Of a DNA stretch of 23,314 bases, positions 1,374 to 23,314 are shown piece after piece. The stretch's first letter is position 1, and each line of letters starts with the position of its first letter. Source of the DNA: a virus; IMG/VR virus record IMGVR_UViG_3300036832_001182, positions 1 through 23,314 of that record; one strand, given 5' to 3'. The translations under genes and the position numbers were made by a program. The notes under the pieces are model-generated. The model searched no databases, was not told the DNA's origin, and saw nothing but the letters and a program-made list of their open reading frames with translations.

Positions 1374-1374
1374 G

Positions 1375-1749: not shown

Positions 1750-1756
1750 GTCAAGT

Positions 1757-2419: not shown

Positions 2420-2459
2420 ATTCGCTTTTCTCCATTTGAGAGGAAACTTGATAGGCACG

Positions 2460-2576
2460 TCAGACGAGAACAACCACTACCGTAGCGGCAATAGCGATCG
2501 ATAGCCAGACCAGGGTTGTTACATCTTCGGGAAGCAAGGAGGGCGCATCAGAAACCTCGCTTTCAGTTGCTGTCAC
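2460..2576 (-). CDS. Tiny single-pass membrane protein (38 aa, tentative)
   Basis: A 38-codon frame starting at GTG 2576 overlaps the last 14 bases of the tail-completion gene in another frame and fills most of the gap before the proline-rich gene. The peptide begins MTATESEVSDAPSLLPEDV, is acidic, and then turns into one membrane helix (LVWLSIAIAATVVVVLV) that ends at the stop. This N-out acidic, C-terminal-anchor layout is typical of small phage membrane proteins. No good ribosome-binding site precedes the GTG. A GCGAGGT motif lies just downstream of it, so a later start cannot be excluded. The clean helix and the otherwise empty interval are the support. Confidence 0.42.
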   Translation of the reverse strand: MTATESEVSDAPSLLPEDVTTLVWLSIAIAATVVVVLV

Positions 2577-3246: not shown

Positions 3247-3614
3247 CACATTGCAATCGTGCCGTTGTCGAGCTGCTCGACGTAGGGCTGCGCGGCGGCC
3301 CAGAAGGTCTGCCACGCCGTGTAGAGCTGACCGATCGCGTAGCTGTAGGCTTGCCCCTGTTCGCCTGGCGTAGATGATGCCTGCACACCGAACAGGTTCT
3401 GACCGTATTGCATCATACCTGCGGGGTTGACATTGGTTGGACCGCCGACTTCGAACTCTGTGCCGGCAGTGCCCTCATAGCCGGAGGACGCAGTGGCAAC
3501 CGCTTCCTGCAACCGGGCCAGATTGGTGTTCAACGAGATAATCCGCGCGATGCATTGATTGGTCTGCATCCCGAACGGATACTGACCCATGTTGGAAATG
3601 ATCGTAGTAGTCAT
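3246..3614 (-). CDS. Small hypothetical structural protein
   Basis: The protein has 122 residues from the ATG at 3614. A GTG immediately before it (3617) is an alternative. GGGAG lies seven bases upstream of the ATG and overlaps the end of the fibre gene. The sequence has an N-terminal half rich in Asn, Thr and Ser (TNQCIARIISLNTNLARL, probably a helix) and a C-terminal aromatic stretch 'AIGQLYTAWQTFWAAAQPYVEQLDNG', probably another helix. There is no signal peptide or membrane helix and no motif I recognise. Its place between the fibre genes and the tail-completion gene, with a TGATG overlap to the latter, suggests a virion or assembly role, for example a fibre-attachment or neck accessory protein. 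Confidence 0.7.
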   Translation of the reverse strand: MTTTIISNMGQYPFGMQTNQCIARIISLNTNLARLQEAVATASSGYEGTAGTEFEVGGPTNVNPAGMMQYGQNLFGVQASSTPGEQGQAYSYAIGQLYTAWQTFWAAAQPYVEQLDNGTIAM

Positions 3615-3617
3615 CAC

Positions 3618-3890
3618 TTATCTCCCTTCCAAAGCCGCGACCCTAGCGGCAAGTTCCTGCATACCGTTCACCAGAGCGGCAATGATCGGCGCCGTGACGA
3701 GACTGAGCATGTCATCCTCGATGCCCTGCCCTGCCGCCTCCGGAATTACCTCGCGCACTTGGCACGCACCGAAGCCAATCTCACTGTGATCGGGCTTACC
3801 GGCGCGACCGAAGCGGATCGGCCTGAGCCGCAATACCTCGGGCAGCCCCACGTCCAGATCACGGATATCGGTCTTGGTGCGCTCGTCAGA
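3618..3890 (-). other. S74 chaperone domain of the 799-aa fibre
   Basis: This is the coding segment for Ser710 to the end. It begins 'SDERTKTDIRDLDVGL', continues with 'LRLRPIRF' and ends in the coiled-coil-like 'VNGMQELAARVAALEGR'. Self-cleavage is expected just before the Ser. It is diverged from the S74 domain of the giant fibre, sharing mainly the S-x-x-R-x-K motif and the terminal coil, so the two were probably not copied recently. Confidence 0.85.
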
Positions 3891-6017: not shown

Positions 6018-6346
6018 CAGTGCAGGGTCCGGGCCTCGACTGCCGCGAGACGCGCAGCAAGTTCCTTCACGGCATTGACCAGCACAGGTATCAACACAGA
6101 GGTATCCAGCCCGTGCATCGGTTGATCATCCGGATCGCCGTCCCATTCCAGATGCGATAGATCGGTCACCACTTCGGGCATCACCGGCAGCATTTCTTCA
6201 ACGATGAAGCCGATTTCCTTTCTGATCGCCGGCTCGGGATCAGTCGGACGTATTTTGCGGCGACGGAATGTCACCGGGCGCATTGCTATGATCTGTTCCA
6301 GGCCCTGTGGTGCATCCTCGATATCGAACTTGAACCGACGCTCCGA
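6017..6346 (-). other. S74 chaperone domain of the giant fibre
   Basis: This is the coding segment for the last 109 residues. The motif 'SERRFKFDIEDAPQGL' holds the expected Ser and the Lys five residues later; the usual Asp after Ser is Glu. 'AMRPVTFRRR' and 'EIGFIVEEMLPVMPEVV' match the conserved S74 core. A C-terminal coil 'VNAVKELAARLAAVEAR' probably assists trimer formation. Confidence 0.88.
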
Positions 6347-9300
6347 GGCCGCGAGGTTCTGATAAGCCCCCATGCCGCCGACCAGACCGAGGTTGTTGTA
6401 GGTCCAGTTGTCGTTGCGCATGATCCATAGATCGACGTTGTTGAGCTTGTAGCTCAGCGTGCCGGTGGCCGTGGCGAAGTCCAGGTAATAGCCTGCCTGG
6501 AATGAATACACCTTGCCGCTACCGCCGGCCCAGAAACCGAAGTTGGCGTCGTTGTTGGCAAAGACCGTGGTTGCCGACTGAATGCTGTTCGCGAAGATAC
6601 CTCCGTTCACCCCGAGGTTCTGCGCAACGACGACACCACCATTGTTGCGATTGATTGTGAGCGGCGCGCCGAGATAGTTACCCGCGTCATCGTAGCGGTA
6701 GATCGCGAAGTTCGTGCCGGCGTTGCTGCCAGTCTCAGCTTCGGGGGTGCCAACGGCGACAATCCAGCGAAGGCTGCTGCCGACGAGACTCTGAACGAAA
6801 TGCGGCTGTCCGGCTGGAGCGTTGAGGTTGAAACCACAGCCGTAGCCAGCGGGAGCATTCAATTGCATATATGCCCCGGCGCCATTCCCATACACCGAGA
6901 GCGATCCGGTCTCCAATAGGGTCATGGCGGTCGCAAGTGTCGCGACACCGCCGACCGTTCCTATTGTTAGTGCCGTCGCCCATTGCCAGCCATTCAGGCT
7001 GCCAGCACTTTGGAAGACGTAGCCTTTCTCGGCCCGCTGATACCGGAAGTTCGTGCCGTCGTAGTAGATGTTGCTGGCGATGTTCTGCGCCGTGATGCCC
7101 CAGCCGAACAACCAGCCACCACCGTTCACCGGATTGGGCGCCGCCTGATTGGAAGGCGGCGGGATGCCGACACCGAAGTTGCCGTTGGGACCAAAGACCG
7201 AGGCGGCATTGCTGCCAGCCTGGATGGTGAGCGGTGCCCCGGAAGGCGCATGAGCCGTCAATGAATTGATGGTCATTGCGCCAGTCGCGCGGTTGACGGT
7301 GTAGACCGTCGTATAACCGTTGCCGGTATCGTTCACCGCTTGAAGTTGCAGATTGTTGCCGACGTTGCCGCCGCTTTCCGCCGTGCCGTCCAGTGACCAC
7401 AGCCAGCGGGACAGGTTGCCGACCCGGAAACCCAGCGCGCACGCCTGCCCCTGGATGGCATTGAGCGCCAGCCCATTGGACCCCGCGGGCGGACTGATGA
7501 TCAGGGTGCCGGTCATCGTGTCGCCGGTCTTCTGGACATACTGACCGAGGGTGACGCGACTATCCACATATTGCTTGGTCACGGCGCCAAGCGGCAGATT
7601 TGGATCAGCCGCGAGTACTAAGTTGCCGGCCACCCCGATGTGAGTCGTGTCATACAGGTAGAGGCCAAGGCTGGGCGTGCCGCCGGTATTTGAGTTGATG
7701 GCGAAATTCAGAGACGGATGCGCAGCCGAGCCGGACGGGATCGACAGACCAAAGGTGCCAAATGATCCAGCCCAAATCGCGTTGGTCGGATAGACAATAC
7801 CACCCGAGCCGTCGTTGACGTAGAAATCGATCCCGTTGCCGTAGCTGCCCGCCGTAGCGTCGTGGCGCGTCGCAATCCAGTGGCGGTAACTGCCGCCGTA
7901 ATAGTCGAATTGCATCTGGGCAAAATTCTGCTGCCGGGCAGCGGTATCGCCATTCCTCACTGCATAGGTGAGGGAATTCGCATTGCCGGCACGATCTGCC
8001 GAGAACATCGAAACCGGCCCCGTCGTGGTATCGCCGGGAGCCGGCATCGCCAGCAAAGCAAAATTGCCGCCGGAGTTGCATAGCGCGAGGTAGTTTTGTG
8101 TATTGCTGTCAGGGATGCCGATGGCAGGATTTCTGCCATTGCTCGTGACGTTGAGCGACAGGCCCAAATTGCTGGCGGACCACTGATCTCCATATGATAA
8201 CCAAACCGGCGGATTAAATATCACCCGGGTCGGATCAAGCCGGGCGATCAGGGTAGTTGAGCTATAAAAATCGTGGTGCCCTGTGACAGTGTTGTAATTC
8301 AGCGTACTGCCGGTGACCGAGAATCCGTAGGTCGAACCGGTGCCGCCATCCCAGAGCGTGATGTGCCTGGATGTATCCTGCGGTCCGGTGGCCACCGCTC
8401 CACCGAAACTTATGCCACCGGACATAACGCCGCCGCCAAGCGGCAAGTAGCCGCCGCCAGCGACTGCACCGGTCAGAGCATCACGCACGAATGCCGTGGT
8501 CGCGATGAAGGTCGTATTGTCGCCGCGCGCCCGTGTGCTGCTGACATTATTCAGCGGGTAGATGCCGGCAGTGTCGGTCCACAGCGCCCACGATCCGCCA
8601 CCCGGGATCGTGATCGTCCCGCCGCTCGCGCCCTGGATGGTGACCGGCTGCGAATTGGTGTTGTTGAAATTCCAAAAGAGCCGCGTCGTGGTGGCCACCG
8701 GCATGGTGATCGTCGCCGGACCAGTCGGGCTGCCGTAGATGTAGAGGTAGCCGTAATTCACCTGATCGGCAGTTGGAGACGCAGCGCCCGAAGCCACGTT
8801 GATGACATTCCGCGAGCCGGCCCGGTCGGCGTACTGTTTTGGCACAGCGAACAACGCGGAAGTCGGATCACCCGGGAGGCTAAGCCATAGCCGAGAGAAA
8901 TTCGTAGAGCCGTCCAACTGAAAAGCGATATTGCCGGCAGCGATGATATTCAGACTGCCGCTGGTCATGCTGAAGCCGCCCCAACCGTCAAACAGCGAGA
9001 TATGGCGACTCATGTCAGTCGCACTGCCCACAGTCGTGGAGCCGAATGAAAGACCGGCGTTGAAGTGCGATGCAGCGTTGGTGGTGAGGCCGCCCGCCAG
9101 CACCTCGTTGCCGCCGCTGTCCAGCGTGAAACGATTCTGCGCCCACGACCAGCCGCCGATGCGAAACAGACCGCCGCTTCCCAGGCCCATCGTGGTCGCA
9201 ACATTGCCGCCCACGTCGAGACCGATCACAGCATCGGCCGTGCTACTCGTGGTGTGTATTCCCAGCGACATAACGGTCGAAGCAAAGCTACCGTCCTTAC

Positions 9301-12300
9301 GGACATCCAACCCACCATGCACCGTGGTGTCGGTCGCGTAGAAGTCGATGGCGGTAGCCGTGGTGCCACTGCGCGTAACGGTAAGCCAGGATGGCGCGGC
9401 GCTGTAGACATCGTTGACCAGCCGGAAAAGCAAGCTGGTCCCGTTGACGAGCAAGTCCCAGTTATTCGCATCCGTGCCGTTACCGGCAGTCATAAACTGA
9501 AGCGCTCCACTCGAAATTGTGGTGGATTGGAGCGCGAGGCTATTGCCGCCACTGATATTCAGGCCGCCGGTCAGTGTCCCGCCGGTCAATTTGAGGTAGT
9601 TGCCGCTAACAAAGCTTTGGGTGGCCAATGCACCCTGGTCATTGCCGTCCACAAAGGCATGGACAGCGCCGCCGGCCCACGTGAAGGCCATCGCGTTGCC
9701 GCCACCGGTCACACCAGAATATTGAATGCCTGGGCCGTAGTTAAGTGTGAGCGTGCCGCCCCAGTTGAGCGACATGATATTGTTGATAGTGCCGCCACTG
9801 TTGATGACCTGATACCAGCGGAAACCCCCGGCAGTGTAGTAGAGGTTGACGAAATCGGTCTCGCCCTGGCCCTGGGTGTAGTTGTTGCCGATCACCGTGC
9901 CCCAGGTGCCGAGGCCAGCGACCGTTCCCATGTTGGAACCGGCCCATAAAGTGCCAGAGATGTTCGCGTTGCCGCTGACCGTCTCATTGCCGGTGACCGT
10001 CAGACTGCCAGAGAAGGTCGCGGCGCCACTTCCGATGTTGAGTTGATCGGCCTGACCGATCACAAAGACATGGTGGCTGTTGGCGTCGCAGTTGTAGTTG
10101 AACCGTGCCCCGGTGACGCAGAAGCCGAAAAGGCCGCTGTAGAAGTCGATGCCCTTCGACAAATCCCAGTTGTTGCTGACCACCGCGCTGCGGAAATCGA
10201 TGCCGGCGCCGAAGCTTCCGTGACCGTCCTGGGTGAGCGGGCCGGAGTTTTGGATACCAACATTCGATAGGATTTGCTGAAGGAAGACCATCCGATTGGC
10301 CTTCACCCAGGTCAGATTGACGGTGATCCCACTGCCGGTGAAGCCCGGCGCAGCAGTGAGTGCGATGGGATTGGCCGGCGCCGATGCCCCGAAGAAATTT
10401 GCCGGGGTGACATCGAGGCGGATGGCCGTTGCCGCGCCCGCGCTGGCAGCGGTGACCGTGTAGATATTCGCGTAGTTGTCATAGTAGCGGTCGTTGGCGG
10501 CAACGCTGGCACCTGCCGCGACGATAGCGACCGCGGTCGCCTTCCATCCTGATGCATCGAAGAACAGGTCGCTGGTGGAGTTGTAGATATTGAGAGTGCT
10601 CGCCTGCAACGACTGAAAATGGCCAGCGCCAGCCGTCCAGATATTGCCACCGCGGGTATCAAACGTGATGCCCATCAGTCCGCCGGGAATGGTCTGGCTG
10701 CCAACCAGCGTGGTCATGCCAATGCCGAACCACGAACCCATCTGCCAGTTGGCACCGGCGAGCCACGCGCCATCGACGCCGCCTGTGCCTGCGCTGGCAT
10801 AACCGGCACTGCCAAATTGGACCTGACTTGTGCCCGACATATTGATGTTGCCGGTCATGCTGCCGCCAGCGAGCGGCAGGTAGTTATTCAGCAAGGTCTT
10901 GACCGCATCGACGTATTGTTTCGTCGCCACACCGAGCGCCGTCGTTGGATCACCCGACATCACCATCGGTTCATAGGCACTAATCTGGCCGGAATTTATC
11001 CCAAAAACTAGGGAGCTATTGCTGTAAAAAGCGTGGGTATTTCCGCTGATATAATTCAGCGCGCTGTTGGAGGTGACGCTGAAGCCGTAGTTGGGCGAAT
11101 AGAGTTCAATGTGATGCGACAGGTCAAACGGGTTAGCTGCCGTGGTGGATGTGAAACCAATGCCGGCGCCGTTGCCCATGGTAAGCGGGCCGGTCATCGT
11201 ATCGCCGACCTGTTCCACATACAACGAGTCAGCTTCCTCACGGGTCAGCGAAGAACCATAAATCTGATACCACTGGGCTTCGGCTGTTGAGTAGATCAGC
11301 TCTGAGCCGCGGTCGAGGATGGTGCCTTGCGGCAACCCAGGCACACTGACCAGGATCGGCGTCATGCCAGTGCTGGAAGCCGTATTCACCGTGTAGGAAT
11401 ACTCATTGTCAACGGTGACCGTGGACAGGTCCGGCGTGTTGGTGTCCGCGTCATAGACGCCCTGCCACAACCTGCCTTGGCTGTTGATCAGCAGATCGAC
11501 GTATTCCTTCGACGTGGCGTCCTTGGTCTGCGTCGGCATCGCGAGGCCGGTCAATTCGTAGCCGGCCATCTGAAGGACACCCTGCATGGTGTCGCCAGTG
11601 ATCAGGACGTATTTGCCCTGTGGACTGAGGTTGTCCACGTAGCTCTTGTTGACCGCTTCCATAGCCAAGGTCGGCGCGTGGTCCAGCATCAGGTTAACGC
11701 CGGACTGCAAGGCGACTGTGAGTGGCGTCGAGCTTGAATAAACCCCAAGCAAGTCGCCAACATAGGCTCCGGCGCTGGTGAAATAACTCAGGTAAAGATT
11801 GCCGCCCCAATTGGAGAAGGCTAGGGCGTTGGCGGAATTTGCCCCTGCTTGAATGTAGAGGCCAGGATTGACGCCGCCGCTTGACGTAAGTGTAAGGTTC
11901 CGTGCGATTTGAGCGGTGTTGACGTTGGTGTCGATGGTCAGGCCACCGGTCAGTCGCCCTCCGACGAGAGGCAGGAAGCCATTGTCCACATACTGCTTCG
12001 GCACCGCCTGCAACGCGGTGGAGGGATTGCCCGCCAGGGTAACGGTGGAACCAAAGGTGGCCGACAGATCAACACCCAAAGCGCCGCTGACATGCAGGCC
12101 GTTGGCAATCAGCACCTGTCCGGTCGCACGCACGATCTGCAAAGTTGCGGTGGCATCAAGCTGCGCACCGGCATCAGAGAACCGGTTGAGGTAGAAGTTG
12201 CTTCCCGCGTTGCTGCCGCTCTCAGCCTCGGTGGTGCCAAGCTGCATTGACCAGCGAGCGAGGCCGCCACGTTCCGCGAACAGCGCCATGGCCAATCCGG

Positions 12301-14071
12301 GCGCAGCGTCGAAGGTGATCGTGGTCCAGTCGGTGGCGCCCGGCGGCGCGACGATGTGGATGCTGTTGGCGCTGTTGCCGGTGATCAGCAGCGAACCGTT
12401 CGGGTTCGATGCAACGTTGGCAATGGTCAGCAGGCCGGTCAGTGTCCCGCCAACCAGTTGTAGGTAGCGCGCGTCGGCTTGTGCTTGAGTGAGCTTGGTA
12501 TCGGCATATTGCCTGGTGACGGCGCCGAGCGGATTTGTCGGATCACCAGCCAAAATGAGCAACCCAGTAGCCCGCGCGATCGTAATCGCGTTCGGTAGCT
12601 GCGTAGTCCCATCATCAGCATAGGCAAACAACTCAAAGTCGCTGCCCGCATTCGAACCACTCTCAGCCACACCATTGATGCGCAGCCGCCAGCGTTCCAA
12701 GGATGCGGTGCGGAAGCTGATATACCGGCCCGATCCAGCTTGACCATTCAGGAACAGATGACCGACGCCAGTGGTGTCTGTGCCAATGGTAAGTTGACCA
12801 GTGAGGGTGCCACCAGTCAGTTGCAAATAACGCGCGTCGCCCAACGCAGGCACCGCGGCATTCACAAATGCCGTGCTGGCAAGCTGTGTGGTGTTGGTGC
12901 CTGGTGCGGCGGTAACACTGGTGACCGATCCGCTGAAAGCTGCCGTCGTGCCGCTCAGGCCGGCAGCAAGAGCCACGGCTTTGTCGAAACTGTAACCGGC
13001 AATGCCGCTGGTCGTGAAGGCAATCGGATTGGTAGTGCCGGACCCCGCCGTGATGGTCAGCTTGTTGGTGTTGCCCACCCCGACCGTCAGCCGGGAAACC
13101 GTGGTCGCCAGCGCAGACAGCGTGCCGACCATCTGCACCGGCACGTTGAAGTAGGCATAGACGCTGGCGAGGCCGCCCCCGGCGTAGAACCACATCCACT
13201 TGTTTGCCGTGTCGCCCGTGCCATCGGCGTTCGCCGCACCAAATACAAACTGTCCAGAACTAGGATAGATACCATAGCTCAGGCTCGCGCTGGCGTCCGG
13301 CATCGCGTAGCTAGGCGCGATCAGCGGACTGGTCAGCTTGCCACCGGATGACCACGCCGCGCTCGCCCGCATGTAGGCATTGCCGTCATTCGGCGCCTCA
13401 GGGAAGCCGTCTCCGACATGCGCATTGAAATACTGCAACGTCACCGGCTGGAGCGCAGCGGCAGGGTCAGCGGCGAGGGTCAACGTGCCGGTCAGCGTGC
13501 CGCCGGTAAGCTGCAACGCCAGTGGTGCCCAGAGCAGACTATCACTGCCTAGCCGCACATAGTTGTTGGGATCAGTGCTGACCGCGGTTGGTCCAGCGGG
13601 ACCGGGCGCGCCATCAGCTCCTGGCGGTCCTTGGACGCCATCTGCACCAGGTGGTCCAGGCGGCCCGGCCGGACCTGTCTCACCTCCCTGGTTAATAGCG
13701 ACCACCCATTGCGCCGTGTTGGGATCAATATACCAGACATAAAGCTGCGTGCCGACGCTGTCGAACCACAGATCGCCGGAATTAGGATTGGCAGGTGGCG
13801 TATCCGCGACGGTGACCGAGGCGCTGCCTCCGCCACCTCCCGTGCTGGCATCGAAGATCAGCTTGCGCCCGGTTGGGTCGATCGAAGTCGGCACACCCAT
13901 CCACAGCCGCACCGGGTCCGATTGCTCCAGGGCAAGCTGGCCGTCGAGCAGCGACAATGGCGCCGGCGGATTGTTCGGCACCGTGGTGCGCAGATGCTGC
14001 ACCACGTTGCCCTGCGCACTGGCGGCGCGCGGAACAGGCAGAGGCCGGAAGAAGGTAAAGCCGTCAGGCAT
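6017..14071 (-). CDS. Giant tail fibre (2684 aa) with collagen-like stretch, hinge repeats and S74 chaperone
   Basis: The ATG at 14071 shares one base with the upstream TGA; a TTG codon just before it is a less likely start. The N-terminus (FTFFRPLPVPRAASAQGNVV) probably anchors to the tail. A small beta unit 'NSGDLWFDS...YVWYID' follows at about residues 98-118. Next are about 11 Gly-X-Y triplets (about 130-162), a short collagen-like trimer seed. The shaft has about ten hinge motifs of the type 'GGTLTGxLxL' and about eight 'DPxxALxAVxKQYVD' motifs. Four copies of an 'ERW...AESGSNAGSNF' module are also present, along with many jelly-like repeats rich in Gly, Asn, Thr and aromatic residues. 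The last 109 residues, from about Ser2576 (SERRFKFDI), are an S74 auto-cleaving chaperone with 'EIGFIVEEMLPVMPEVV'. The frame is uninterrupted over 8 kb. It is a host-recognition fibre, unusually long. Confidence 0.92.
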   Translation of the reverse strand: MPDGFTFFRPLPVPRAASAQGNVVQHLRTTVPNNPPAPLSLLDGQLALEQSDPVRLWMGVPTSIDPTGRKLIFDASTGGGGGSASVTVADTPPANPNSGDLWFDSVGTQLYVWYIDPNTAQWVVAINQGGETGPAGPPGPPGADGVQGPPGADGAPGPAGPTAVSTDPNNYVRLGSDSLLWAPLALQLTGGTLTGTLTLAADPAAALQPVTLQYFNAHVGDGFPEAPNDGNAYMRASAAWSSGGKLTSPLIAPSYAMPDASASLSYGIYPSSGQFVFGAANADGTGDTANKWMWFYAGGGLASVYAYFNVPVQMVGTLSALATTVSRLTVGVGNTNKLTITAGSGTTNPIAFTTSGIAGYSFDKAVALAAGLSGTTAAFSGSVTSVTAAPGTNTTQLASTAFVNAAVPALGDARYLQLTGGTLTGQLTIGTDTTGVGHLFLNGQAGSGRYISFRTASLERWRLRINGVAESGSNAGSDFELFAYADDGTTQLPNAITIARATGLLILAGDPTNPLGAVTRQYADTKLTQAQADARYLQLVGGTLTGLLTIANVASNPNGSLLITGNSANSIHIVAPPGATDWTTITFDAAPGLAMALFAERGGLARWSMQLGTTEAESGSNAGSNFYLNRFSDAGAQLDATATLQIVRATGQVLIANGLHVSGALGVDLSATFGSTVTLAGNPSTALQAVPKQYVDNGFLPLVGGRLTGGLTIDTNVNTAQIARNLTLTSSGGVNPGLYIQAGANSANALAFSNWGGNLYLSYFTSAGAYVGDLLGVYSSSTPLTVALQSGVNLMLDHAPTLAMEAVNKSYVDNLSPQGKYVLITGDTMQGVLQMAGYELTGLAMPTQTKDATSKEYVDLLINSQGRLWQGVYDADTNTPDLSTVTVDNEYSYTVNTASSTGMTPILVSVPGLPQGTILDRGSELIYSTAEAQWYQIYGSSLTREEADSLYVEQVGDTMTGPLTMGNGAGIGFTSTTAANPFDLSHHIELYSPNYGFSVTSNSALNYISGNTHAFYSNSSLVFGINSGQISAYEPMVMSGDPTTALGVATKQYVDAVKTLLNNYLPLAGGSMTGNINMSGTSQVQFGSAGYASAGTGGVDGAWLAGANWQMGSWFGIGMTTLVGSQTIPGGLMGITFDTRGGNIWTAGAGHFQSLQASTLNIYNSTSDLFFDASGWKATAVAIVAAGASVAANDRYYDNYANIYTVTAASAGAATAIRLDVTPANFFGASAPANPIALTAAPGFTGSGITVNLTWVKANRMVFLQQILSNVGIQNSGPLTQDGHGSFGAGIDFRSAVVSNNWDLSKGIDFYSGLFGFCVTGARFNYNCDANSHHVFVIGQADQLNIGSGAATFSGSLTVTGNETVSGNANISGTLWAGSNMGTVAGLGTWGTVIGNNYTQGQGETDFVNLYYTAGGFRWYQVINSGGTINNIMSLNWGGTLTLNYGPGIQYSGVTGGGNAMAFTWAGGAVHAFVDGNDQGALATQSFVSGNYLKLTGGTLTGGLNISGGNSLALQSTTISSGALQFMTAGNGTDANNWDLLVNGTSLLFRLVNDVYSAAPSWLTVTRSGTTATAIDFYATDTTVHGGLDVRKDGSFASTVMSLGIHTTSSTADAVIGLDVGGNVATTMGLGSGGLFRIGGWSWAQNRFTLDSGGNEVLAGGLTTNAASHFNAGLSFGSTTVGSATDMSRHISLFDGWGGFSMTSGSLNIIAAGNIAFQLDGSTNFSRLWLSLPGDPTSALFAVPKQYADRAGSRNVINVASGAASPTADQVNYGYLYIYGSPTGPATITMPVATTTRLFWNFNNTNSQPVTIQGASGGTITIPGGGSWALWTDTAGIYPLNNVSSTRARGDNTTFIATTAFVRDALTGAVAGGGYLPLGGGVMSGGISFGGAVATGPQDTSRHITLWDGGTGSTYGFSVTGSTLNYNTVTGHHDFYSSTTLIARLDPTRVIFNPPVWLSYGDQWSASNLGLSLNVTSNGRNPAIGIPDSNTQNYLALCNSGGNFALLAMPAPGDTTTGPVSMFSADRAGNANSLTYAVRNGDTAARQQNFAQMQFDYYGGSYRHWIATRHDATAGSYGNGIDFYVNDGSGGIVYPTNAIWAGSFGTFGLSIPSGSAAHPSLNFAINSNTGGTPSLGLYLYDTTHIGVAGNLVLAADPNLPLGAVTKQYVDSRVTLGQYVQKTGDTMTGTLIISPPAGSNGLALNAIQGQACALGFRVGNLSRWLWSLDGTAESGGNVGNNLQLQAVNDTGNGYTTVYTVNRATGAMTINSLTAHAPSGAPLTIQAGSNAASVFGPNGNFGVGIPPPSNQAAPNPVNGGGWLFGWGITAQNIASNIYYDGTNFRYQRAEKGYVFQSAGSLNGWQWATALTIGTVGGVATLATAMTLLETGSLSVYGNGAGAYMQLNAPAGYGCGFNLNAPAGQPHFVQSLVGSSLRWIVAVGTPEAETGSNAGTNFAIYRYDDAGNYLGAPLTINRNNGGVVVAQNLGVNGGIFANSIQSATTVFANNDANFGFWAGGSGKVYSFQAGYYLDFATATGTLSYKLNNVDLWIMRNDNWTYNNLGLVGGMGAYQNLAASERRFKFDIEDAPQGLEQIIAMRPVTFRRRKIRPTDPEPAIRKEIGFIVEEMLPVMPEVVTDLSHLEWDGDPDDQPMHGLDTSVLIPVLVNAVKELAARLAAVEARTLH
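7498..13516 (-). repeat. Hinge and 'KQYVD' repeats of the giant fibre shaft
   Basis: About ten diverged protein repeats of the form 'L-x-L-[TV]-G-G-[TR]-L-T-G-x-L-[TN]-[IL]' or its 'TGDTMTG' variant occur from near 13516 to near 7498. Most are paired with an 'A-V-x-K-Q-Y-V-D' segment, for example near 12500, 11985, 10915, 8830 and 7565. The repeats are irregularly spaced and separated by different shaft domains. This is typical of phage fibres built by module duplication and exchange. Confidence 0.8.
13586..13684 (-). other. Collagen-like Gly-X-Y stretch in the giant fibre
   Basis: Eleven consecutive Gly-X-Y triplets (GET, GPA, GPP, GPP, GAD, GVQ, GPP, GAD, GAP, GPA, GPT) are encoded here. 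A run of this length can form a short triple helix, so it supports a trimeric fibre. It lies between the N-terminal anchor and the first hinge, where a rigid spacer would be useful. Confidence 0.9.
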
Positions 14072-14595
14072 CAACTACCCCAGCGCATCATGACACCTCT
14101 GCTCCAGGTCAGCACCAGGCCGGAGAGGGTATCCGGCACGTTGTCACCCAGCACCTCATAGCCACCAATGCCGACCATGCGCATCAGCCAATAGAACCGC
14201 TGGCCATACATGGTATAGTTCCAGGGTCCGGCGCCCTCCATCGCGGTGACATTGACATCATAACTGACTGAGACCTTGCTGACGCTCTTGTTGGTCATCA
14301 GCCCCTTGGCGAGGCCGGGCACTCCGTTGCCGCTGCCCTGCATGGCATAGGCCGACAGAGCCAGCATGTGCGCCGTCATCAGCTCCACACCAGGCTGGAT
14401 CAGAGTAACCCATACCAGAGGATCAAGTGCTGCGGATGACATGTCAAGATAGAACTGCACCTGGCTGTCGGGATATTTCGTCGTGTCACCGAACTCGGGG
14501 AAGTGAGAACGAAAAGTCGGCGGATCGGATATCGTCGAAGTGGGAATGACCGGAGGCGCTGGTGTGCCAGCAGGCAGAACGACGGCGCCGCTCAT
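14071..14595 (-). CDS. DUF4054-type head-tail adaptor protein
   Basis: The protein has 174 residues; its start overlaps the upstream stop by four bases (ATGA). 'FRSHFPEFGDTTKYPDSQVQ' (about residues 28-47) is the family's hallmark opening, in which an 'F-P-E-F' turn is followed by a helix whose remnants cover residues 43-58. 'ELMTAHMLALSAYAMQGSG' continues the helical bundle. A beta segment 'VSKVSVSYDVN' and 'YTMYGQRFYWLMRM' follow, with the usual 'T-x-Y-G-x-x-Y' box. DUF4054 proteins are adaptors placed between portal and tail, next to the capsid genes, as here. The C-terminus (LSGLVLTWSRGVMMRWGS) is slightly longer than the box requires. Assignment is strong on motif and context. Confidence 0.88.
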   Translation of the reverse strand: MSGAVVLPAGTPAPPVIPTSTISDPPTFRSHFPEFGDTTKYPDSQVQFYLDMSSAALDPLVWVTLIQPGVELMTAHMLALSAYAMQGSGNGVPGLAKGLMTNKSVSKVSVSYDVNVTAMEGAGPWNYTMYGQRFYWLMRMVGIGGYEVLGDNVPDTLSGLVLTWSRGVMMRWGS

Positions 14596-15339: not shown

Positions 15340-16323
15340 TCAGATGCCGTCGCGGAAACCGATCGTTTCCGGGTAGGGAGACTCCACCTGACCCTTGCGG
15401 GACCAATAGGTGGTGATGTTGTAGAGTGAGCGCCACTCAAGCGGGGTCTTCTGCAGTGGCGTCATCGGAAAACGCACCTTGTCGTATTCCTTGGTGTAAG
15501 CGACCATGCGCTGAGCATTGCCGACACCGCGGTTGGTCAGCCACTTCGACGCCTGGATGTTCAGTGGCTTGTTGCCGTGCGTGATGGACAGGTTGTTCTC
15601 CTGGATGTAGCGCAGCACGGAGACGTTACCGGCTGTGCTGACGATCGTCGAGACCAACAGCGCCATCTGCGCCGGCGGCACGCGCAGTTCGGAAGGCACG
15701 ATGGCATAGCCGGAAGCTGCCCAGACAGACGACAGCAGCTCGTTGATCTGCGCGATGATCACGGCCGCACCACCTGCCGACCAGGTGCCACCTGTGACGT
15801 TGGTCACATTGGTAACTGTCGAGAGGTTGACGAGACCTGTGGTGCCGACAATGCTATCGCCAATATACACGAGCTGATCAGTGTCCATCTGATCCTTCAG
15901 GCGCAGTGCCTGAAACTTCTGCTCGTCGATCGGCCGGCCAAGCTGCATGGCGGAGGCCAGCTCCGGCATCGAGTAGGCCAGCTCCTGCCCCCAGAGGCGC
16001 AGCGGGTTGGCAGTCTTGCCGATGTCCAGCGACACACTTGGAATGGCGTTGCTGTCTTTGCCAATCCATGAAATGCCCTGGGTGGCGAAACCACCGGCAG
16101 CACCGAATGTCGAGTTGGTGAACGACACCCACTCGTCACCGGTTGTGATGTCGGTGCGCAGGTCCATATCGCGCGACCAGGTGATCGACACCAGAGGCTC
16201 ATGAAGCGCCGGATCAAGCCGCTCCAGCTCCCCGATCAGAAAGGCACCGGCGCTGTCGCGCGTGATGCCGTCAAAGGTCTGCATCCCTCCGTAGGAAGGC
16301 AGGCCACTCATGCCGTCAGGCAT
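15340..16323 (-). CDS. Major capsid protein, DUF2184-type HK97 fold
   Basis: The protein has 327 residues. GGGGGTGAG lies just upstream of the ATG at 16323, and the gap to the cement gene is 14 bases. The N-terminal 'AFLIGELERLDPALHEPL' followed by 'TTGDEWVSFTNSTFGAAGGF', 'SVSLDIGKTANPLRLWGQEL' and the long helix 'FQALRLKDQMDTDQLVYIGD' fit the DUF2184 family of major capsid proteins. 'STVTNVTNVTGGTWSAGG' marks the loop before the axial helix. The C-terminal part holds 'EYDKVRFPMTPLQKTPLEWR', typical of the closing strand. It assembles into the shell with the scaffold- and cement-like proteins encoded just upstream. There is no sign of a long cleaved N-terminal delta domain, consistent with a separate scaffold. 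Confidence 0.9.
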   Translation of the reverse strand: MPDGMSGLPSYGGMQTFDGITRDSAGAFLIGELERLDPALHEPLVSITWSRDMDLRTDITTGDEWVSFTNSTFGAAGGFATQGISWIGKDSNAIPSVSLDIGKTANPLRLWGQELAYSMPELASAMQLGRPIDEQKFQALRLKDQMDTDQLVYIGDSIVGTTGLVNLSTVTNVTNVTGGTWSAGGAAVIIAQINELLSSVWAASGYAIVPSELRVPPAQMALLVSTIVSTAGNVSVLRYIQENNLSITHGNKPLNIQASKWLTNRGVGNAQRMVAYTKEYDKVRFPMTPLQKTPLEWRSLYNITTYWSRKGQVESPYPETIGFRDGI

Positions 16324-17805: not shown

Positions 17806-17813
17806 CCCTCCTT
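17806..17813 (-). promoter_or_regulatory. Ribosome-binding site of the scaffold-like gene
   Basis: AAGGAGGG on the minus strand, five bases before the ATG at 17800, is the strongest such site in the window. It fixes the start of the scaffold-like protein and fits a need for high expression. Confidence 0.88.
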
Positions 17814-17837
17814 CCCTGACAGAGTTCACAGTCGCAG

Positions 17838-18011
17838 TCATTCCTCGTAGTCGACATCATCGTCGTCTGCCACCCGAGGCAGTGGCAGACCCTTCTCGCG
17901 CTTGGGCAGGCCGTAGTAATCGCTCTCGCCGTCCCAGGAAACGCTTTCCTCTTTGCCATCCTTGTCGTAGATGACAACCATCATGCCGCCTTCGAAGTTC
18001 TCTCTGGCCAT
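17838..18011 (-). CDS. Small acidic hypothetical protein (57 aa)
   Basis: The ATG at 18011 overlaps the polyprotein stop by one base (TGATG), and GAGGAG lies 11 bases upstream, inside the end of the polyprotein gene. The product begins MARENFEGGMMVVIYDKDGK, has 'SVSWDGESDYYGLPKREKG' in the middle and ends in an acidic tail (ADDDDVDYEE). Two short strands and a disordered tail are likely. It is too short to assign. Its place between the polyprotein and the scaffold-like gene suggests a capsid-assembly or packaged accessory role. Coding is supported by the exact overlap and by filling an otherwise empty interval, which also rules out an N-terminal extension of the scaffold-like gene. Confidence 0.7.
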   Translation of the reverse strand: MARENFEGGMMVVIYDKDGKEESVSWDGESDYYGLPKREKGLPLPRVADDDDVDYEE

Positions 18012-21000
18012 CACATGGTCACTCCTCGCACGACATATTCACCGTTGGGCTTCTTCTCAATCTCGTAGATATCCCACACCGTGCCATGACGCAGGTTGAG
18101 TTCGTTCTCGGTATCGAACGACGAGTCATTCGCCCAGAAACCAAGCGCACGATGACCCTTGCGCACGACGATCTCGTAGGTGACATTGCCGTGCATGGCA
18201 GGGTGCGCCGCCATCGAGCACGAAGTATGGCCCGACCGCTGCGGACGCACATACTTGCCGGCCTGCAAATCCGCAATCCATCCATCAATCACAGCCTGCT
18301 TGACATTCTCACCGCGCCGCACCAGAACGTCCTGCTTCACGACAGCATCGTCGTGCTCATAAAGGTCGTCGATCAGGTCGGCGTATTCCTTGGCCAGCGG
18401 CGAGTAATGACCAGTCTTGTCACGCAGATAGCCATTGATGGAACCAGAGCCGCCCTTGTAGGACTTGACAGCCGTGCGCTGCTCGGCGGTGGTATTCTTC
18501 TTCCACCAGTTGCGATCCATGGTGATCGTAGCCTTCACCGCCTGCGCATCATGTGCGTTCGGCATGCTCAGCGCTACCTGGCGCAGGGTCGTGCCTCTGG
18601 CGAGCACCTTGTGGTTGGCACTCTCGATCTTGTTGGATACAGGCTTGGGCGCAGGTGCAGGCTTAGGCGCAGGTGCCTGTGCAGGTGCTGCTGCCGGCGT
18701 GGGCTGGATGATCTGCTTGACCTGAGCGGCATATTCCTGGGTCTTGGGTCCAGTGACCGAGCTGTTCTGCAGGATCAGATTGATCGCATTGATCTTGTCA
18801 GTGGGCGACAGTGCAGGATTGGTGGCAATCTTGTGCACCTGTTCCTGACCGGCAGACCCTGGATAGGGGTCAGGGATTTTCGGCGGTGCCGGCTGCTGCG
18901 CAGCCAGATGCTGCATCCACTTATGGGCGAACTGCTGATCAGCCTCCGGTGCAAGTTGATTTTGGCCCAGATACTCACTGATTGCCTGGGCTTTCTCAGC
19001 CGGGGTTTTCCCCTCCTCAGTCGCCAACCCATAAACCTTGGCCTGCATGAAATGAGCAAAATCCGGCTTCATATCATCGGGAACAGGCGCCGCCGACAAC
19101 GACGGATCATCCTTCAGCTTCTGCAGCACCTCAAGTTTATATTTGGTGATGATCGAGTTGGTCGAGATGACCTTGTTGATCTGCGCGACCTTTTCCTCGT
19201 AGGTCATCGAAGAAGCCGTCGCGACGGCGTTGATCAGCTCGGTCTTGCCCTGCCCCAGCGGCGACAGGCTGATCTTTGGCGGTGGCGGCAGACCGGCAGA
19301 CGGCATCAAGGTGGGTGGTGGCGAGGCGGGTGCGGATGGCTTCGGCACCGGCTTGGCGATGGCGGCACCACCTTCGGCCGACTGCACGTGGCTCAGCAGC
19401 TTCTTGGCGTAGGACTTGAAGCTGCCATCGACGTATTTGTCATGATAGTTCTTGATCTTCTGCTTGATCTCATCGAAACCGGTGCCGCTCTCCAGCGCGT
19501 GCTTGACCTCCTGGACGAGCACCTTGGTAGGCCAGTGGCCCTGCACGGACTTGGCAACGGGGGTCGGGATTGAAGACGCGTAGTGCAGCGTGCTGGGTGG
19601 CAGCGGAGATGACGCACCTCCGCCACCTCCGCCGCCTGAAGTGAACTGCCCACCACTGGCCGAACCAGAGGGAACGCGTGGGTGTTCTGCTTCAACGAAA
19701 TCATCCTTTGACCAGCGCGAGAAGAAGTGCATCACGCGGTCAACTACCGTCACACCGGCACGCTTGGCGATGTCGCGCTTGCGCGCGATCAGCTTCTCGG
19801 CCAACTCCTTCTTCTGCTGCTCGGTGCCGGGTCCGTGCTCCATCACGAGTGCGCGGATGGTATCATTTGGAACTGAAGACACCTTGGCGGCAGATGCGGC
19901 CAAAGCTTCGGTCGAGGCAGAACCGAATATCCGATGCGCCTGCTGATTGGATGGGCTGCGCATGCTCTCCCATTCGCCGACCTGATTGCCGAAGGCATTG
20001 CCCTTCAGTGTGCCTTGCGCCCGGAAGATCAGCGAACCACCCGGGTCCAGGGTGGTCATCTTGCCACCGATCACACCCTGGTTGTCATACTCCAGGCCGG
20101 CCGCGTCCCAGTTGGCAAGCCAGGCGTGGGTGGCGAAGTGCTGCTGGGCTTCGGCCACCTGCGCCTTGTTATGCCGGTCGATCAGCTTGACATCGTGCGC
20201 CCATTTGGTGGCAGTGCCGAGCTTGCCTTCCGGGGTCTTCACCAACTGCGAACTGATGACTGGTGAGCCTGCCGCCTCGTAGAGTTTCGCCGCCAGTATC
20301 TCGTTCCTGGCATGTGCCTCGGACTTGGAGAACTTGACGTAATGCTTGGTGCCGGTCTCGTCCTCCATCTGCGCACCCGGGTTACTGCCCAGCTGCTTGC
20401 CGACCTTTTTCCAGTTGGAGACATCGGGAATGGGCTTGCCGGCAGGCACAGTCGTCTTCAACGCCGCCTTGGGTGTCTCCTTCAGCTCAGTCTTGGGCGC
20501 TGACTTCAGGATCAGCTTATCGACCATCTCGTGGTCGATCGGATGATTGAGGATTTCCTTGAGCTTGTCGGGAGGAACCAGCGACACCTTTTCAGCTTCA
20601 CGACCATGATCGGTCGGCGTGCCGCCGATGCGCCGGCCATAGTAGTAGCGCGTCTGGGTATATTCACGGTTCACATCAGCGGCATATCCAGTGAGTTCAA
20701 CCTGCAGACCAGTTTCCTCATGCGCCTCCTTAATGGCGTTGGCGCGAAGCGACAGGTTAGGGTCCTGACCACCCTTCGGAAAAGTTGCTTCATAACCACC
20801 ATACTGATTGGTTGGATGCATCAGCCAGACGTGGCCATTAGGTTCGCGGATGATCACTCCGGAAGACTGGGTTTTGCCATGCTTGAGCGGTGGAACCGGA
20901 GGTGCTGTGATCTTCGGACCTTTTGACGCATGCGCTTCCCAGCCTTTGGCGTTGGTTGGTGCCGCTTCCCACTTTTTGAAAGCAACCCCATGCAGAGGGG

Positions 21001-23314
21001 CTGGATTGGCCATACCCCTGCTGTATGACGCGTGACTGCCACCGCCTTCGGTGAACTTGCCCTCGTCATCGCGCGGATGTTCACTTTCAACGAAGCCGGC
21101 ATCCTCGGTCTGGTCATAGTCGACGTCCCCGAGCATGTCCTTGATTTCATCACTGTCAAGGTTGTCCACCGTATCAGCGATCGCCTCGGCGAACTTACGC
21201 AGAAGCTCAATGTCCTCGGGATCAAGGTCCTCGTCGCTCTCATCCTTGGACAGCAGCTTGCGCTTGGCAACCATGCCGGCACCGACCAGGGTCTTCAGGG
21301 CGTGTTCGACGATGACGTGCTGGACGACCTCCTGACCGAAGTGTGCCGCCAGGTGGCCGACCGACCCCGTTGGATCGCCGAACGCCACCGAGGCACCGGT
21401 CATCAGGATGCGGGCGCCGACACTGCGCAGCCCTTTCATCTGCGCCGGACTGGGCTTCGATCCACTCGCCAGCGCCTTCAGTCCACCCGCGGCATGTCTG
21501 GCGTGATGGACTTCTTCTTTCATCTTCGTGCGCAGCAGGCCGGGCAGGGACCTCGCCATGGCCCTGACCTGGTGCGACAGCTTGCCGCGGTCTTCAGCGC
21601 TGATCTTACTTATCTGCGAATGGATAGCATGCGCCTCAGAAGCACCAAACTTTTTGACAGCACGTGTGCCATGCCGCATAGCCTTTTTATGCAGGCCCTC
21701 TCCCTTGGAGGAACTGCTGCCGCCACCCCCTGATGTAAACTGCCCGCTCTCGGCGCCGCCATGGACGCGTGGGTGTTCACTTTCGACGAAATCATCTTCG
21801 GTCGAGAATGGGTCGAACCCGAGCATGGCAATGACATCAGGATCAGCTCGCTCGATATCCTCACCATCGTCTTCGTCTGGCGCATCGCCGACATCCGGCA
21901 GCTCGCTGCCTGCTTCGCCCCAGTGCGCATCTGGCAGGTCGTCATCGTCCTGATAGGCGGCGTCCGCGGTCATCTGCGCTGCCTGGCGCCAGCCGGCAAA
22001 CACCACGGGAGAGATATAGGACGACAAGGCAATCGCCGGGGTATTGCCGAGCTTCTGCGATACAATTATCGCTACATGCTTGACGGCACGTTTGTATTCC
22101 TTTGCGTTGGCAGGCTCGGGGGTCTGTCTGACTGCCTCCATCGCGGTGGTGGTGCCGACGTGGGTGCGGAAATCCTTGGTCTTGAACTCACCGAGCGAGT
22201 GCACATGGTTGAGCACAGCCTTTTCGTTCGCTTCGAACAGCTGGCCCTCGTCCCCAGCCTTTGCCTTGCGGCGCAGCAGCATCTGAGCCACATCGGGATC
22301 ATCAACCGGCATCTCAATGGTCTGGCCGTGCTTTTTACCGGGCACGAAGCGCAGCACGACACCGTTCGGTGTCTCGACTACGTGGCGCCCCTCCAGGGTG
22401 GTGGCGCCATAGGACTGCTCATCGGCACCTTTCTCCACGCCGCCAGGCCGCATACCGGTGTGCATGATCAAAGCGGTGGCGTCGGCAGCAGCAGCCGTCG
22501 TCGGGTCCTTGGACCTCTGCGCGGCAGCGTTCTTCGCCCTGATGGCATTGAACTTGCCGGTCAGAGCTTTGACACGCGCGAACTTGGCAGCGGCCTGGGT
22601 GGCGTGGTGCGCCTCCGAGTAGATCGGCTGGCGCCTGCCTTTGGCATCCATGCCTGTGGCCAGCAGGGCAGCATTGGGATCAGGCGAGTAGGTGACGGAT
22701 GTCCAGGCCGGCGGTATCTTCAGCTTCTGGATGTGCTCCGGCAGGTCTTTGCCAGAGGCCGCCGTGCGCTTACCATTGACGGCCGCAGACGCTGCCAGAT
22801 GATGCGCCTTGGATGAACCACTGCCTTCGGTGAACTGACCTTCGTCATCGCGTGGGTGCTCACTCTCGACAAAGCCGGCGTCGTTCACAGCACCAATCCT
22901 GAGCAGATCGGAGTGATGCACGATACCCGAACTGTTGCCCTCGGGACCTTCCATCAGGGTCTGCTTGCCGGAGGGACCAATGCCGCTCTCGATGTCGGGA
23001 TATATCTTCGCCCCTGACTTCAGCCGGTAGGCTGTGGTCTTGCCGTGATACTGCGCGCCCGTGCGCGAGCGCGTGACGAACATAAAGCCCTCGGGTTTAT
23101 AGCCTTCCTTCAGGCCATGATAGACCAGAGGATCGCTGGCCTTGGCCTTGGGATGGGTCGACACCAGGCCCGCCTCATGGCCCTGCTTTGCCCATTCCCG
23201 CGCAGTGGGTGAGCCTTCCGTCCCGGCGAACTTGCCGGCATCGTCCCTTGGATGGTCACCTTCGATGAAGGCAGCGTCGTAGTCATAGACCGTTCTGCCG
23301 TCTATGATCGTGCA
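18011..23314 (-). CDS. Mosaic polyvalent phage protein with topoisomerase IB, NUDIX, kinase-like and ADP-ribosyltransferase domains (5' end outside window)
   Basis: The frame is open to the right edge. A GTG at 23164 could be read as a start, but the 50 codons before it already encode a complete linker copy, so the gene begins outside the window. Residues here are numbered from that GTG. In order: small unknown domain (about 1-95); type IB topoisomerase (125-398); unknown helical domain (486-690); NUDIX hydrolase (760-890); kinase-like domain (912-1135); tandem helical repeats (1195-1490); Pro/Ala linker; R-S-E ADP-ribosyltransferase (1515-1717). Linkers with core 'F-[VI]-E-x-[ED]-H-P-R' separate most of these. 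Such 'polyvalent' proteins are known in phages and are thought to be packaged and injected. The upstream part may hold a portal- or MuF-type head protein. Cleavage into separate enzymes by a prohead protease is possible but not shown. Confidence 0.9.
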   Translation of the reverse strand, partial: CTIIDGRTVYDYDAAFIEGDHPRDDAGKFAGTEGSPTAREWAKQGHEAGLVSTHPKAKASDPLVYHGLKEGYKPEGFMFVTRSRTGAQYHGKTTAYRLKSGAKIYPDIESGIGPSGKQTLMEGPEGNSSGIVHHSDLLRIGAVNDAGFVESEHPRDDEGQFTEGSGSSKAHHLAASAAVNGKRTAASGKDLPEHIQKLKIPPAWTSVTYSPDPNAALLATGMDAKGRRQPIYSEAHHATQAAAKFARVKALTGKFNAIRAKNAAAQRSKDPTTAAAADATALIMHTGMRPGGVEKGADEQSYGATTLEGRHVVETPNGVVLRFVPGKKHGQTIEMPVDDPDVAQMLLRRKAKAGDEGQLFEANEKAVLNHVHSLGEFKTKDFRTHVGTTTAMEAVRQTPEPANAKEYKRAVKHVAIIVSQKLGNTPAIALSSYISPVVFAGWRQAAQMTADAAYQDDDDLPDAHWGEAGSELPDVGDAPDEDDGEDIERADPDVIAMLGFDPFSTEDDFVESEHPRVHGGAESGQFTSGGGGSSSSKGEGLHKKAMRHGTRAVKKFGASEAHAIHSQISKISAEDRGKLSHQVRAMARSLPGLLRTKMKEEVHHARHAAGGLKALASGSKPSPAQMKGLRSVGARILMTGASVAFGDPTGSVGHLAAHFGQEVVQHVIVEHALKTLVGAGMVAKRKLLSKDESDEDLDPEDIELLRKFAEAIADTVDNLDSDEIKDMLGDVDYDQTEDAGFVESEHPRDDEGKFTEGGGSHASYSRGMANPAPLHGVAFKKWEAAPTNAKGWEAHASKGPKITAPPVPPLKHGKTQSSGVIIREPNGHVWLMHPTNQYGGYEATFPKGGQDPNLSLRANAIKEAHEETGLQVELTGYAADVNREYTQTRYYYGRRIGGTPTDHGREAEKVSLVPPDKLKEILNHPIDHEMVDKLILKSAPKTELKETPKAALKTTVPAGKPIPDVSNWKKVGKQLGSNPGAQMEDETGTKHYVKFSKSEAHARNEILAAKLYEAAGSPVISSQLVKTPEGKLGTATKWAHDVKLIDRHNKAQVAEAQQHFATHAWLANWDAAGLEYDNQGVIGGKMTTLDPGGSLIFRAQGTLKGNAFGNQVGEWESMRSPSNQQAHRIFGSASTEALAASAAKVSSVPNDTIRALVMEHGPGTEQQKKELAEKLIARKRDIAKRAGVTVVDRVMHFFSRWSKDDFVEAEHPRVPSGSASGGQFTSGGGGGGGASSPLPPSTLHYASSIPTPVAKSVQGHWPTKVLVQEVKHALESGTGFDEIKQKIKNYHDKYVDGSFKSYAKKLLSHVQSAEGGAAIAKPVPKPSAPASPPPTLMPSAGLPPPPKISLSPLGQGKTELINAVATASSMTYEEKVAQINKVISTNSIITKYKLEVLQKLKDDPSLSAAPVPDDMKPDFAHFMQAKVYGLATEEGKTPAEKAQAISEYLGQNQLAPEADQQFAHKWMQHLAAQQPAPPKIPDPYPGSAGQEQVHKIATNPALSPTDKINAINLILQNSSVTGPKTQEYAAQVKQIIQPTPAAAPAQAPAPKPAPAPKPVSNKIESANHKVLARGTTLRQVALSMPNAHDAQAVKATITMDRNWWKKNTTAEQRTAVKSYKGGSGSINGYLRDKTGHYSPLAKEYADLIDDLYEHDDAVVKQDVLVRRGENVKQAVIDGWIADLQAGKYVRPQRSGHTSCSMAAHPAMHGNVTYEIVVRKGHRALGFWANDSSFDTENELNLRHGTVWDIYEIEKKPNGEYVVRGVTM
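18014..18622 (-). other. ADP-ribosyltransferase domain (R-S-E class)
   Basis: The C-terminal 200 residues carry the R-S-E signature. Arg1616 or Arg1617 lies in 'DVLVRRGEN', a Ser motif lies in 'SGHTSCSMAAHP' (1644-1655), and the 'E-x-E' pair Glu1686/Glu1688 lies in 'FDTENELNLRHGTVW'. The preceding helix 'QRTAVKSYKGGSGSINGYLR' is also typical. E-x-E enzymes usually modify arginine. All catalytic positions are present, so an active NAD+-using host-protein modifier is plausible. Confidence 0.85.
18695..19582 (-). other. Tandem helical repeats with Pro-rich spacers
   Basis: Residues about 1195-1490 hold roughly four diverged units of 50-60 residues. The clearest shared part is 'T-x-x-E-K-[VA]-x-x-I-N' (TYEEKVAQINKVISTNS, TPAEKAQAISEYLGQNQ, SPTDKINAINLILQNSS). 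Each unit is followed by a second helix rich in Lys and Gln. Pro-rich segments separate the units. They look like a flexible helical arm between the kinase-like and ADP-ribosyltransferase domains. Confidence 0.6.
19760..20431 (-). other. Kinase-like domain (HipA/PI-kinase-like fold, tentative)
   Basis: Residues about 912-1135. 'GKQLGSNPGAQMED' resembles a nucleotide-binding loop, 'HYVKF' supplies Lys944, and 'ARNEILAAKLYEAAG' supplies Glu955 on a helix. 'NWDAAGLEYDN' (Asp1020, Asp1027, Asn1028) resembles a catalytic loop, and 'TLDPGGSL' (Asp1040) resembles the metal-binding D-x-G. The order and spacing match atypical kinases such as HipA and PI3/4-kinases. Substrate unknown. Confidence 0.65.
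20495..20887 (-). other. NUDIX hydrolase domain
   Basis: The NUDIX box lies at residues 798-820: 'FPKGGQDPNLSLRANAI' followed by 'KEAHEETGLQV'. The core 'K-E-A-x-E-E-x-G-L' matches R-E-U-x-E-E-x-G-U with Lys for Arg. The earlier conserved Glu of the box is Leu. 'SSGVIIREPNGHVWLMHP' forms the preceding strands. The metal-binding Glu residues are kept, so hydrolysis of a nucleoside-diphosphate derivative is likely. Confidence 0.85.
21095..21709 (-). other. Unknown helical domain of the polyprotein
   Basis: Residues about 486-690 are predicted to be helical: a basic N-terminal half (KKAMRHGTRAVKKFGASEAH; MKEEVHHARHAAGGLKALAS), a hydrophobic Gly-rich middle (ARILMTGASVAFGDPTGSVG; HVIVEHALKTLVGAGMVAK) and an acidic helix (DPEDIELLRKFAEAIADTV). 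I recognise no enzyme motif. The middle could interact with membranes. Confidence 0.6.
21965..22792 (-). other. Type IB DNA topoisomerase domain
   Basis: Residues about 125-400. The opening 'KIPPAWTSVTYSPDPNAAL' and 'GMDAKGRRQPIYSEAH' match bacterial and poxvirus-like enzymes. The catalytic set is visible: Arg239 in 'HTGMRPGG', 'YGATTLEGRHV', Lys277 or Lys278 in 'FVPGKKHG', Arg333 in 'FKTKDFRTHVGTTTA', Asn374 in 'KLGNTPAIA' (His in vaccinia) and Tyr383 in 'SSYISPVV'. It should relax supercoils through a 3'-phosphotyrosine intermediate. Confidence 0.92.

Follow-up and report, generated by a model that had tools for sequence, protein, structure and literature searches.

A predicted polyvalent phage protein carries enzyme modules behind a head-maturation protease, separated by a recurrent linker peptide

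A giant polyvalent protein in a phage capsid locus

The window analysed here is an entire IMG/VR record of 23,314 bp. Its minus strand encodes a giant protein that is, with good probability, a polyvalent cargo protein built on a phage head-maturation protease, packaged in the procapsid and ejected with the DNA. The initial annotation had proposed a packaged effector set, and we infer packaging from the fusion to DUF2213, the neighbouring scaffold and major capsid protein (MCP) genes, virion-associated homologues and the contexts in which the linker occurs. Read from the sequence, the order of parts is DUF2213 protease, linker, domain A, linker, topoisomerase IB, linker, helical domain, linker, NUDIX hydrolase plus kinase-like domain, linker, helical arm and ADP-ribosyltransferase (ART). 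The polypeptide thereby combines two or more biochemically disparate domains, one mark of a polyvalent protein. The initial annotation recognized the modules, but neither the protease on which they are built, nor what the linker means, nor that the protein belongs to a shuffled series.

The frame runs uninterrupted for 1767 codons, as had been claimed, from position 23314 to 18011 on the minus strand. It is open at the contig end and the gene is therefore incomplete in the window. A plus-strand reading of the same bases was rejected, since stops interrupt the frame. The assignment to a capsid locus was likewise correct: the MCP (PF09950, E 2.8e-70; 15340–16323, minus strand) and the scaffold gene lie downstream, which places the gene among virion late genes. 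The polyvalent gene is separated from the scaffold gene by a short ORF (MARENFEGGMMVVIYDKDGK...) at about 17810–18010 (minus strand). Two large fibre-like proteins of 2685 and 799 aa are encoded at 6017–14074 and 3618–6017 (both minus strand), between the capsid and neck genes. Both have many repeats of the 'GDP..ALGAVTKQYVD' type, a collagen stretch and Peptidase_S74 chaperone ends, and they may be fibres of the head or the tail, encoded at an unusual place. PADLOC gave no match to anti-phage defence systems. A scan of genomes gave no host assignment, with only 37–53% relatives of the protease domain, mostly proteobacterial; the same scan returned three linker copies, in other contexts.

The protease base and the scaffold gene

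The first residues of the frame (CTIIDG; 23297–23314, minus strand) are the last residues of a DUF2213 head-maturation protease, the remainder of which lies beyond the contig. They align with the RCGARCSILDG end of DUF2213 in the relative L007 (PF09979, E 1.7e-43). The near-identical contig L132 overlaps the window (137 of 138 bp) and carries the whole DUF2213 domain, as judged by alignment. Based on these alignments, the N-terminus of the giant protein is a DUF2213 head-maturation protease, supplied by L132 and also present in L007. Residues H79 and S134 are invariant in the DUF2213 alignment A3 and would suit an assemblin-type active site. L007 is a complete relative: its DUF2213 domain is followed by topoisomerase IB, by the helical domain that the window protein also has, and by an arm, and where the ART would be it has a zincin-like HEFGH domain. 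Its upstream genes are terminase-like, portal-like and MuF-like, by reading and by synteny with Burkholderia phage Magia.

The scaffold gene of the window (P0004; 16865–17977, minus strand) matches phrog_1961 at positions 170–416 of 417. The same sequence is fused to DUF2213 in Magia gp5 and in L140, a close 'empty' relative with protease and scaffold in one ORF and no enzymes between them. Because L140 and Magia have both parts in one protein, and the scaffold is a separate gene here, the enzymes sit between the protease and its scaffold.

Enzyme modules

Four enzyme-like domains in one frame had been described previously. Pfam matches, PDB profiles, catalytic residues and AlphaFold2 (AF2)/Foldseek comparisons support this description, with the ART lacking a confident model. 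A bacterial-type topoisomerase IB is encoded at 21995–22816 (minus strand), with conserved TGxRPG, GKK, KDFR and SYI(S) positions. Pfam Topoisom_I matches residues 239–420 (E 7.3e-18), Top1B_N_bact is matched with E 1.9e-9, and the best PDB sequence match is the bacterial-type structure 2f4q (E 1.9e-20). The AF2 pLDDT is mostly 70–94. The catalytic residues R271, K309, R365 and Y415 (A12 numbering) are invariant in 17 sequences. Some members of the topoisomerase IB family have His where the LGNT motif here has Asn.

The NUDIX hydrolase (20510–21037) and the kinase-like domain (19730–20428, both minus strand) follow each other without a linker. For both, AF2 models built on 28 aligned natural sequences have a pLDDT that is mostly >90, the confident folds that a structure-prediction check was to look for. 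The NUDIX domain is nearest to Ap4A/Ap6A hydrolases. Its Pfam match (residues 816–932, E 6.3e-10) is above the cut-off, and the Ap4A hydrolase 3i7u is both its best PDB sequence match and a Foldseek match (E 3.4e-7, TMt 0.75). The kinase-like domain carries GSNPG, VK, NE, NWD and DPGGSL motifs and is shared by 78 related loci. Foldseek matched its model to the HipA-like kinase CtkA of H. pylori (3akl, E 2.7e-5, TMt 0.54), and it looks like a HipA/CtkA-type kinase on the basis of this model. The HipA_C curated Pfam cut-off was not reached (17.9 bits vs 30.5, E 0.0026).

The C-terminal ART (18014–18547, minus strand) belongs to the R-S-E class, with VRRGE, HTSCSM and ENE motifs. Pfam ADPrib_exo_Tox matches residues 1603–1753 with E 8e-5 in the whole protein, and above the cut-off with E 2.7e-7 when the domain is searched alone. 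Its profile matches VIP2, C3 and CdtA structures in the PDB (E about 1e-8). VRRGE, TSxSM and ENE, the Arg, STS-like and ExE motifs of the C3/VIP2 class, are invariant in alignment A6. The AF2 model is of low confidence.

The previous claim that each enzyme retains its catalytic residues holds for the topoisomerase, ART and kinase, in which they are kept across divergent relatives. In the NUDIX domain, compared with GX5EX7REUXEEXGU, the KEAHEETGL core of the box is kept, R is replaced by K and the first Glu by Leu. The NUDIX homologue of Yersinia phage fHe-Yen8-01 likewise lacks this first Glu. An imperfect box, together with enzyme activities that are predicted ones, might point to a structural or degraded multidomain protein with no delivery function. 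We consider this very improbable in view of the long open frame and the catalytic residues kept in the other three enzymes.

Domain A, the helical domain and the helical arm

The segment previously listed as unknown and the helical arm were both located. Domain A (22874–23227, minus strand) is an orphan of about 118 aa with no Pfam match and an AF2 pLDDT of about 30; in local tblastn its only match is in the overlapping contig L132. By eye, it has a faint resemblance to small ART-like folds (PLVYHG...FMFVT). The helical domain (21095–21718, minus strand) has no assigned function and no Pfam match, and its AF2 model is of low confidence. It is common to L007, L135, L139 and L061/L215, with tblastn E-values down to 3e-44 against relatives. 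The helical arm (18560–19621, minus strand) consists of short helical repeats and Pro/Ala linkers; its helices appear in the AF2 model, parts of which reach pLDDT 70–94. A related arm precedes the ART in L047/L142/L145, and a similar Pro-rich helical stretch lies ahead of the zincin in L007 and L149.

A conserved linker peptide between the modules

Linkers had been noted before and are indeed present. The new result is that all five are copies of one conserved peptide of the 'FVESEHPRD' type, with the consensus [FW]xE(S/A/G)xHPR..G(K/Q)F(T/A)xGGG. They are found between the modules at residues 18, 150, 511, 743 and 1208, corresponding on the minus strand to FIEGDHPRDDAGKF (23228–23269), FVESEHPRDDEGQFTEGSG (22817–22873), FVESEHPRVHGGAESGQFTSGGGG (21719–21790), FVESEHPRDDEGKFTEGGG (21038–21094) and FVEAEHPRVPSGSASGGQFTSGGGGG (19622–19699). 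A Glu followed by a small residue (x-E|small) is present in all five.

Modules are shuffled among relatives and the motif is followed by Gly-rich tails, as expected if the linker were a recombination seam, that is, a mere flexible spacer spread by module shuffling. However, the linkers at residues 150 and 743 share 8/8 residues and only 2/8 codons. Identical peptides thus use different codons, which points to selection on the linker peptide rather than to copies made recently. Conservation across unrelated portal families, and N-terminal copies with nothing in front of them, likewise speak against a seam, and we regard this explanation as improbable.

The linker in other phages

The linker was searched with a fixed pattern, E-x-[EDKN]-HPRD-xx-G-x-F, the residue after it being only loosely specified; this covers HPRD variants only. 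The pattern was found in at least 119 phage contigs. Isolated phages with the linker include Pseudomonas phage Orimi01, in which it joins the portal to an ART-like domain, Gordonia phage Forza and Faecalibacterium phage FP_Brigit. The matches listed comprise 114 distinct copies. In 108 of these the second residue ahead of the Glu is Phe or Trp (4.8% expected), and in 71 the Glu is followed by Ser, Ala or Gly (24% expected); neither position is set by the search pattern. The segments on the N-terminal side of the listed linkers are portals (about 32), NUDIX (10), MuF (6) and DUF2213 (3). On the C-terminal side, ART (12), Zeta toxin (8), topoisomerase IB (5) and NUDIX (4) were found, and also PBECR, RelA/SpoT, GNAT and kinase domains. 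In phage topoisomerase IB loci, the linker is in the same ORF in 11 of 12 cases, and there it precedes the topoisomerase, with the sole exception of a locus cut at its start. Since in many unrelated phages the linker joins toxin-like enzymes to head proteins, it looks like a label for packed and delivered enzymes.

The listed matches also include copies close to the N-terminus: in 34 of 109 5'-complete ORFs the linker lies within 60 aa of it, and in 10 within 15 aa. Stand-alone cargo genes may start with the linker (e.g. MQFDENKHPRD, MNAFEESKHPRD), and such genes adjoin portal, terminase, protease and capsid genes. In L039, a single ORF of 1351 aa (997–5016) strings small modules together and contains six linkers, the first at residue 11.

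On the sequence evidence, the best explanation of the linker is a cargo tag. That it is in addition the cleavage site of the DUF2213 protease we propose tentatively, at somewhat less than an even chance. The protein would then be a polyprotein cut at [FW]xE|(S/A/G), with the separate enzymes released in the head. The enrichment of F/W and S/A/G around the Glu would fit such a site. An x-E|small junction also agrees with known head proteases, which cut after x-E (S/A-X-E in phiKZ, A-X-E in SPN3US), and T4 removes capsid targeting peptides from its internal proteins and Alt (PMC9026906, PMC5694885). Among the matches listed, 30 long linker contigs were compared with protease families, and 18 of them contain a DUF2213 (15, of which 14 above the cut-off), S78 (1) or XkdF (2) protease. 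S49 or ClpP proteases were found in none of 16 linker contigs screened. As a rough, unmatched baseline for this co-occurrence, 714 of 50,697 phage records give a DUF2213 match, and much of the association may reflect one head-gene lineage.

Other observations argue against cleavage. In 12 of the 30 long contigs, which may be partial, no protease of the five families tested was detected. The conserved DxxLEAExA site of the scaffold, compared as a possible cleavage site equal to the linker, shares with it only a loose E-containing motif. Furthermore, the linker is best conserved in HPRDxxGKF, downstream of where the cut would fall, and differs in this from T4 targeting peptides. With the strongest conservation there, the motif may only bind something.

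HPRDxxGKF could stay uncut and serve as a docking peptide by which cargo is attached to the scaffold, the portal or the capsid interior, which we judge possible, if rather short of an even chance. Docking would be consistent with the downstream conservation, with the N-terminal placement in stand-alone cargo and with the presence of the linker in phages that have different portals and no detected DUF2213. On its own, however, it leaves [FW]xE(S/A/G) unexplained, and one copy would do where up to six (L039) are found in a row in one protein. The broadest proposal, that [FW]xE(S/A/G)xHPRDxxGKF is a general tailed-phage address label for head-loaded enzymes, cut by a DUF2213/assemblin-type protease, with the present protein a true capsid polyprotein, we regard as possible but less likely than not.

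Shuffled architectures around the protease

In 19 of the 22 loci nearest to the window, linker and enzymes follow DUF2213; none were detected among more distant loci. Three of the loci are the same contigs as others (L131, L136 and L151 correspond to L017, L007 and L014), and L133–135 and L137–139 are near-copies. The 22 loci therefore hold about a dozen independent architectures, and some architecture calls were made by regular expression. DUF2213 is followed by kinase and ART in L014, L141 and L145, by NUDIX and kinase in L150, by topoisomerase and ART in L142, by GNAT, NUDIX, kinase and ART in L047, by a zincin-like domain in L149 and by ART-like and nuclease-like domains in L146. Across the series an ART or a zincin is the C-terminal module. 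Some DUF2213 fusions (L143, L146) end in a nuclease-like domain (GEAVI..NYL..PVDMIGDHELIEIKTG).

Effectors follow the protease in L131–L152. In L244, L245, L255 and L262 a linker and a kinase were seen ahead of a DUF2213-like signature, by regular expression only. On these matches, the fusion of effectors with the head protease may occur in either order, which would favour the linker as a cleavage site. The same kinase domain is also found in phage proteins of about 5000 aa (L243, L252, L254, L258, L284).

A whole-protein search for the same architecture returned only two contigs, of a shorter relative, and no isolated phage had it at 80% coverage. The domain combination had been called unfamiliar. 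In the open-access literature, topoisomerase IB as head cargo, the linker family and a protease base with this enzyme set were not found described; the protein is nevertheless one of a shuffled series, and polyvalent proteins as such are known.

Discussion

We propose the following course of events. The protease domain would carry the enzymes into the procapsid core together with the scaffold. At maturation the linkers would be kept as tags or, less surely, be cut by the same protease after the Glu of [FW]-x-E|(S/A/G), which would free the enzymes inside the head. The enzymes would then be ejected with the DNA. In the host, topoisomerase IB could relieve supercoiling of incoming or host DNA, the NUDIX hydrolase could clear nucleotides that resemble alarmones or ADP-ribose, and host proteins could be modified by the kinase and ART. 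Indirect support for presence in the virion comes from Pseudomonas phage Pa193, whose DUF2213 protein gp24 was detected in mature virions by LC-MS and cryo-EM, with residues 286–326 seen at the capsid five-fold vertices (PMC11042391). Homologues of the ART/kinase and NUDIX modules in fHe-Yen8-01 are annotated as 'particle associated'.

Apart from T4 and a few giant phages, it is not yet understood how a phage selects the proteins that enter its head and its host. With a short conserved tag at the junctions of head proteins and effectors, a single mutation would suffice to test this, and injected effectors could be sought by sequence. Should the reading as a general label be true, the label alone would find injected effectors across viromes. 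Topoisomerase IB is added to the enzymes that a phage may deliver at entry, and effector cassettes are shown to be placed between the head protease and its scaffold.

Iyer et al. (2017, PMC5512222) described polyvalent proteins in phages and conjugative elements. As here, they combine unlike enzyme domains in one polypeptide, are encoded in the virion gene region, include ARTs, kinases and MuF/portal fusions, and are predicted to be injected. In contrast, the base here is a DUF2213 head protease. Processing was ascribed to zincin metallopeptidases, none of which was seen in the window protein. The main text of that study does not name topoisomerase IB as a domain, and it makes no reference to the HPR linker. 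Fusions of MuF, portal or head protease (a capsid-processing serine peptidase) with NUDIX and ART domains, predicted to be packaged, have also been reported (PMC9503650); the passages compared describe no multi-module set with topoisomerase IB, a HipA/CtkA-like kinase and a recurrent linker. The open-access literature yielded no further portal or protease effector fusions.

T4 Alt and internal proteins and the ejection proteins of SPN3US and phiKZ are packaged in the head, as predicted here, and are cleaved after x-E where a propeptide ends (PMC9026906, PMC5694885). The junction in the window protein differs in being conserved mainly downstream and repeated within one protein, with the protease in the same polypeptide. 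Magia gp5 and Pa193 gp24 have a homologous protease domain and the same gene position. There, the scaffold directly follows the protease, whereas here about 1750 aa of enzymes follow it and a gene of its own encodes the scaffold.

Yersinia phage fHe-Yen8-01 and Pseudomonas phage Dolphis carry homologous NUDIX and kinase domains (about 42–46% identity) beside an ART. Their records gave no match to topoisomerase IB. In contrast to the window protein, the NUDIX is a separate gene and the ART protein is punctuated by a different repeat (GMLVFKDGHW). In the particle-associated ART/kinase protein of fHe-Yen8-01 (L002, 3294–9734) this repeat reads EGDxKxGxxGMLVFKDGHWVK, and it is perhaps a second kind of cargo linker.
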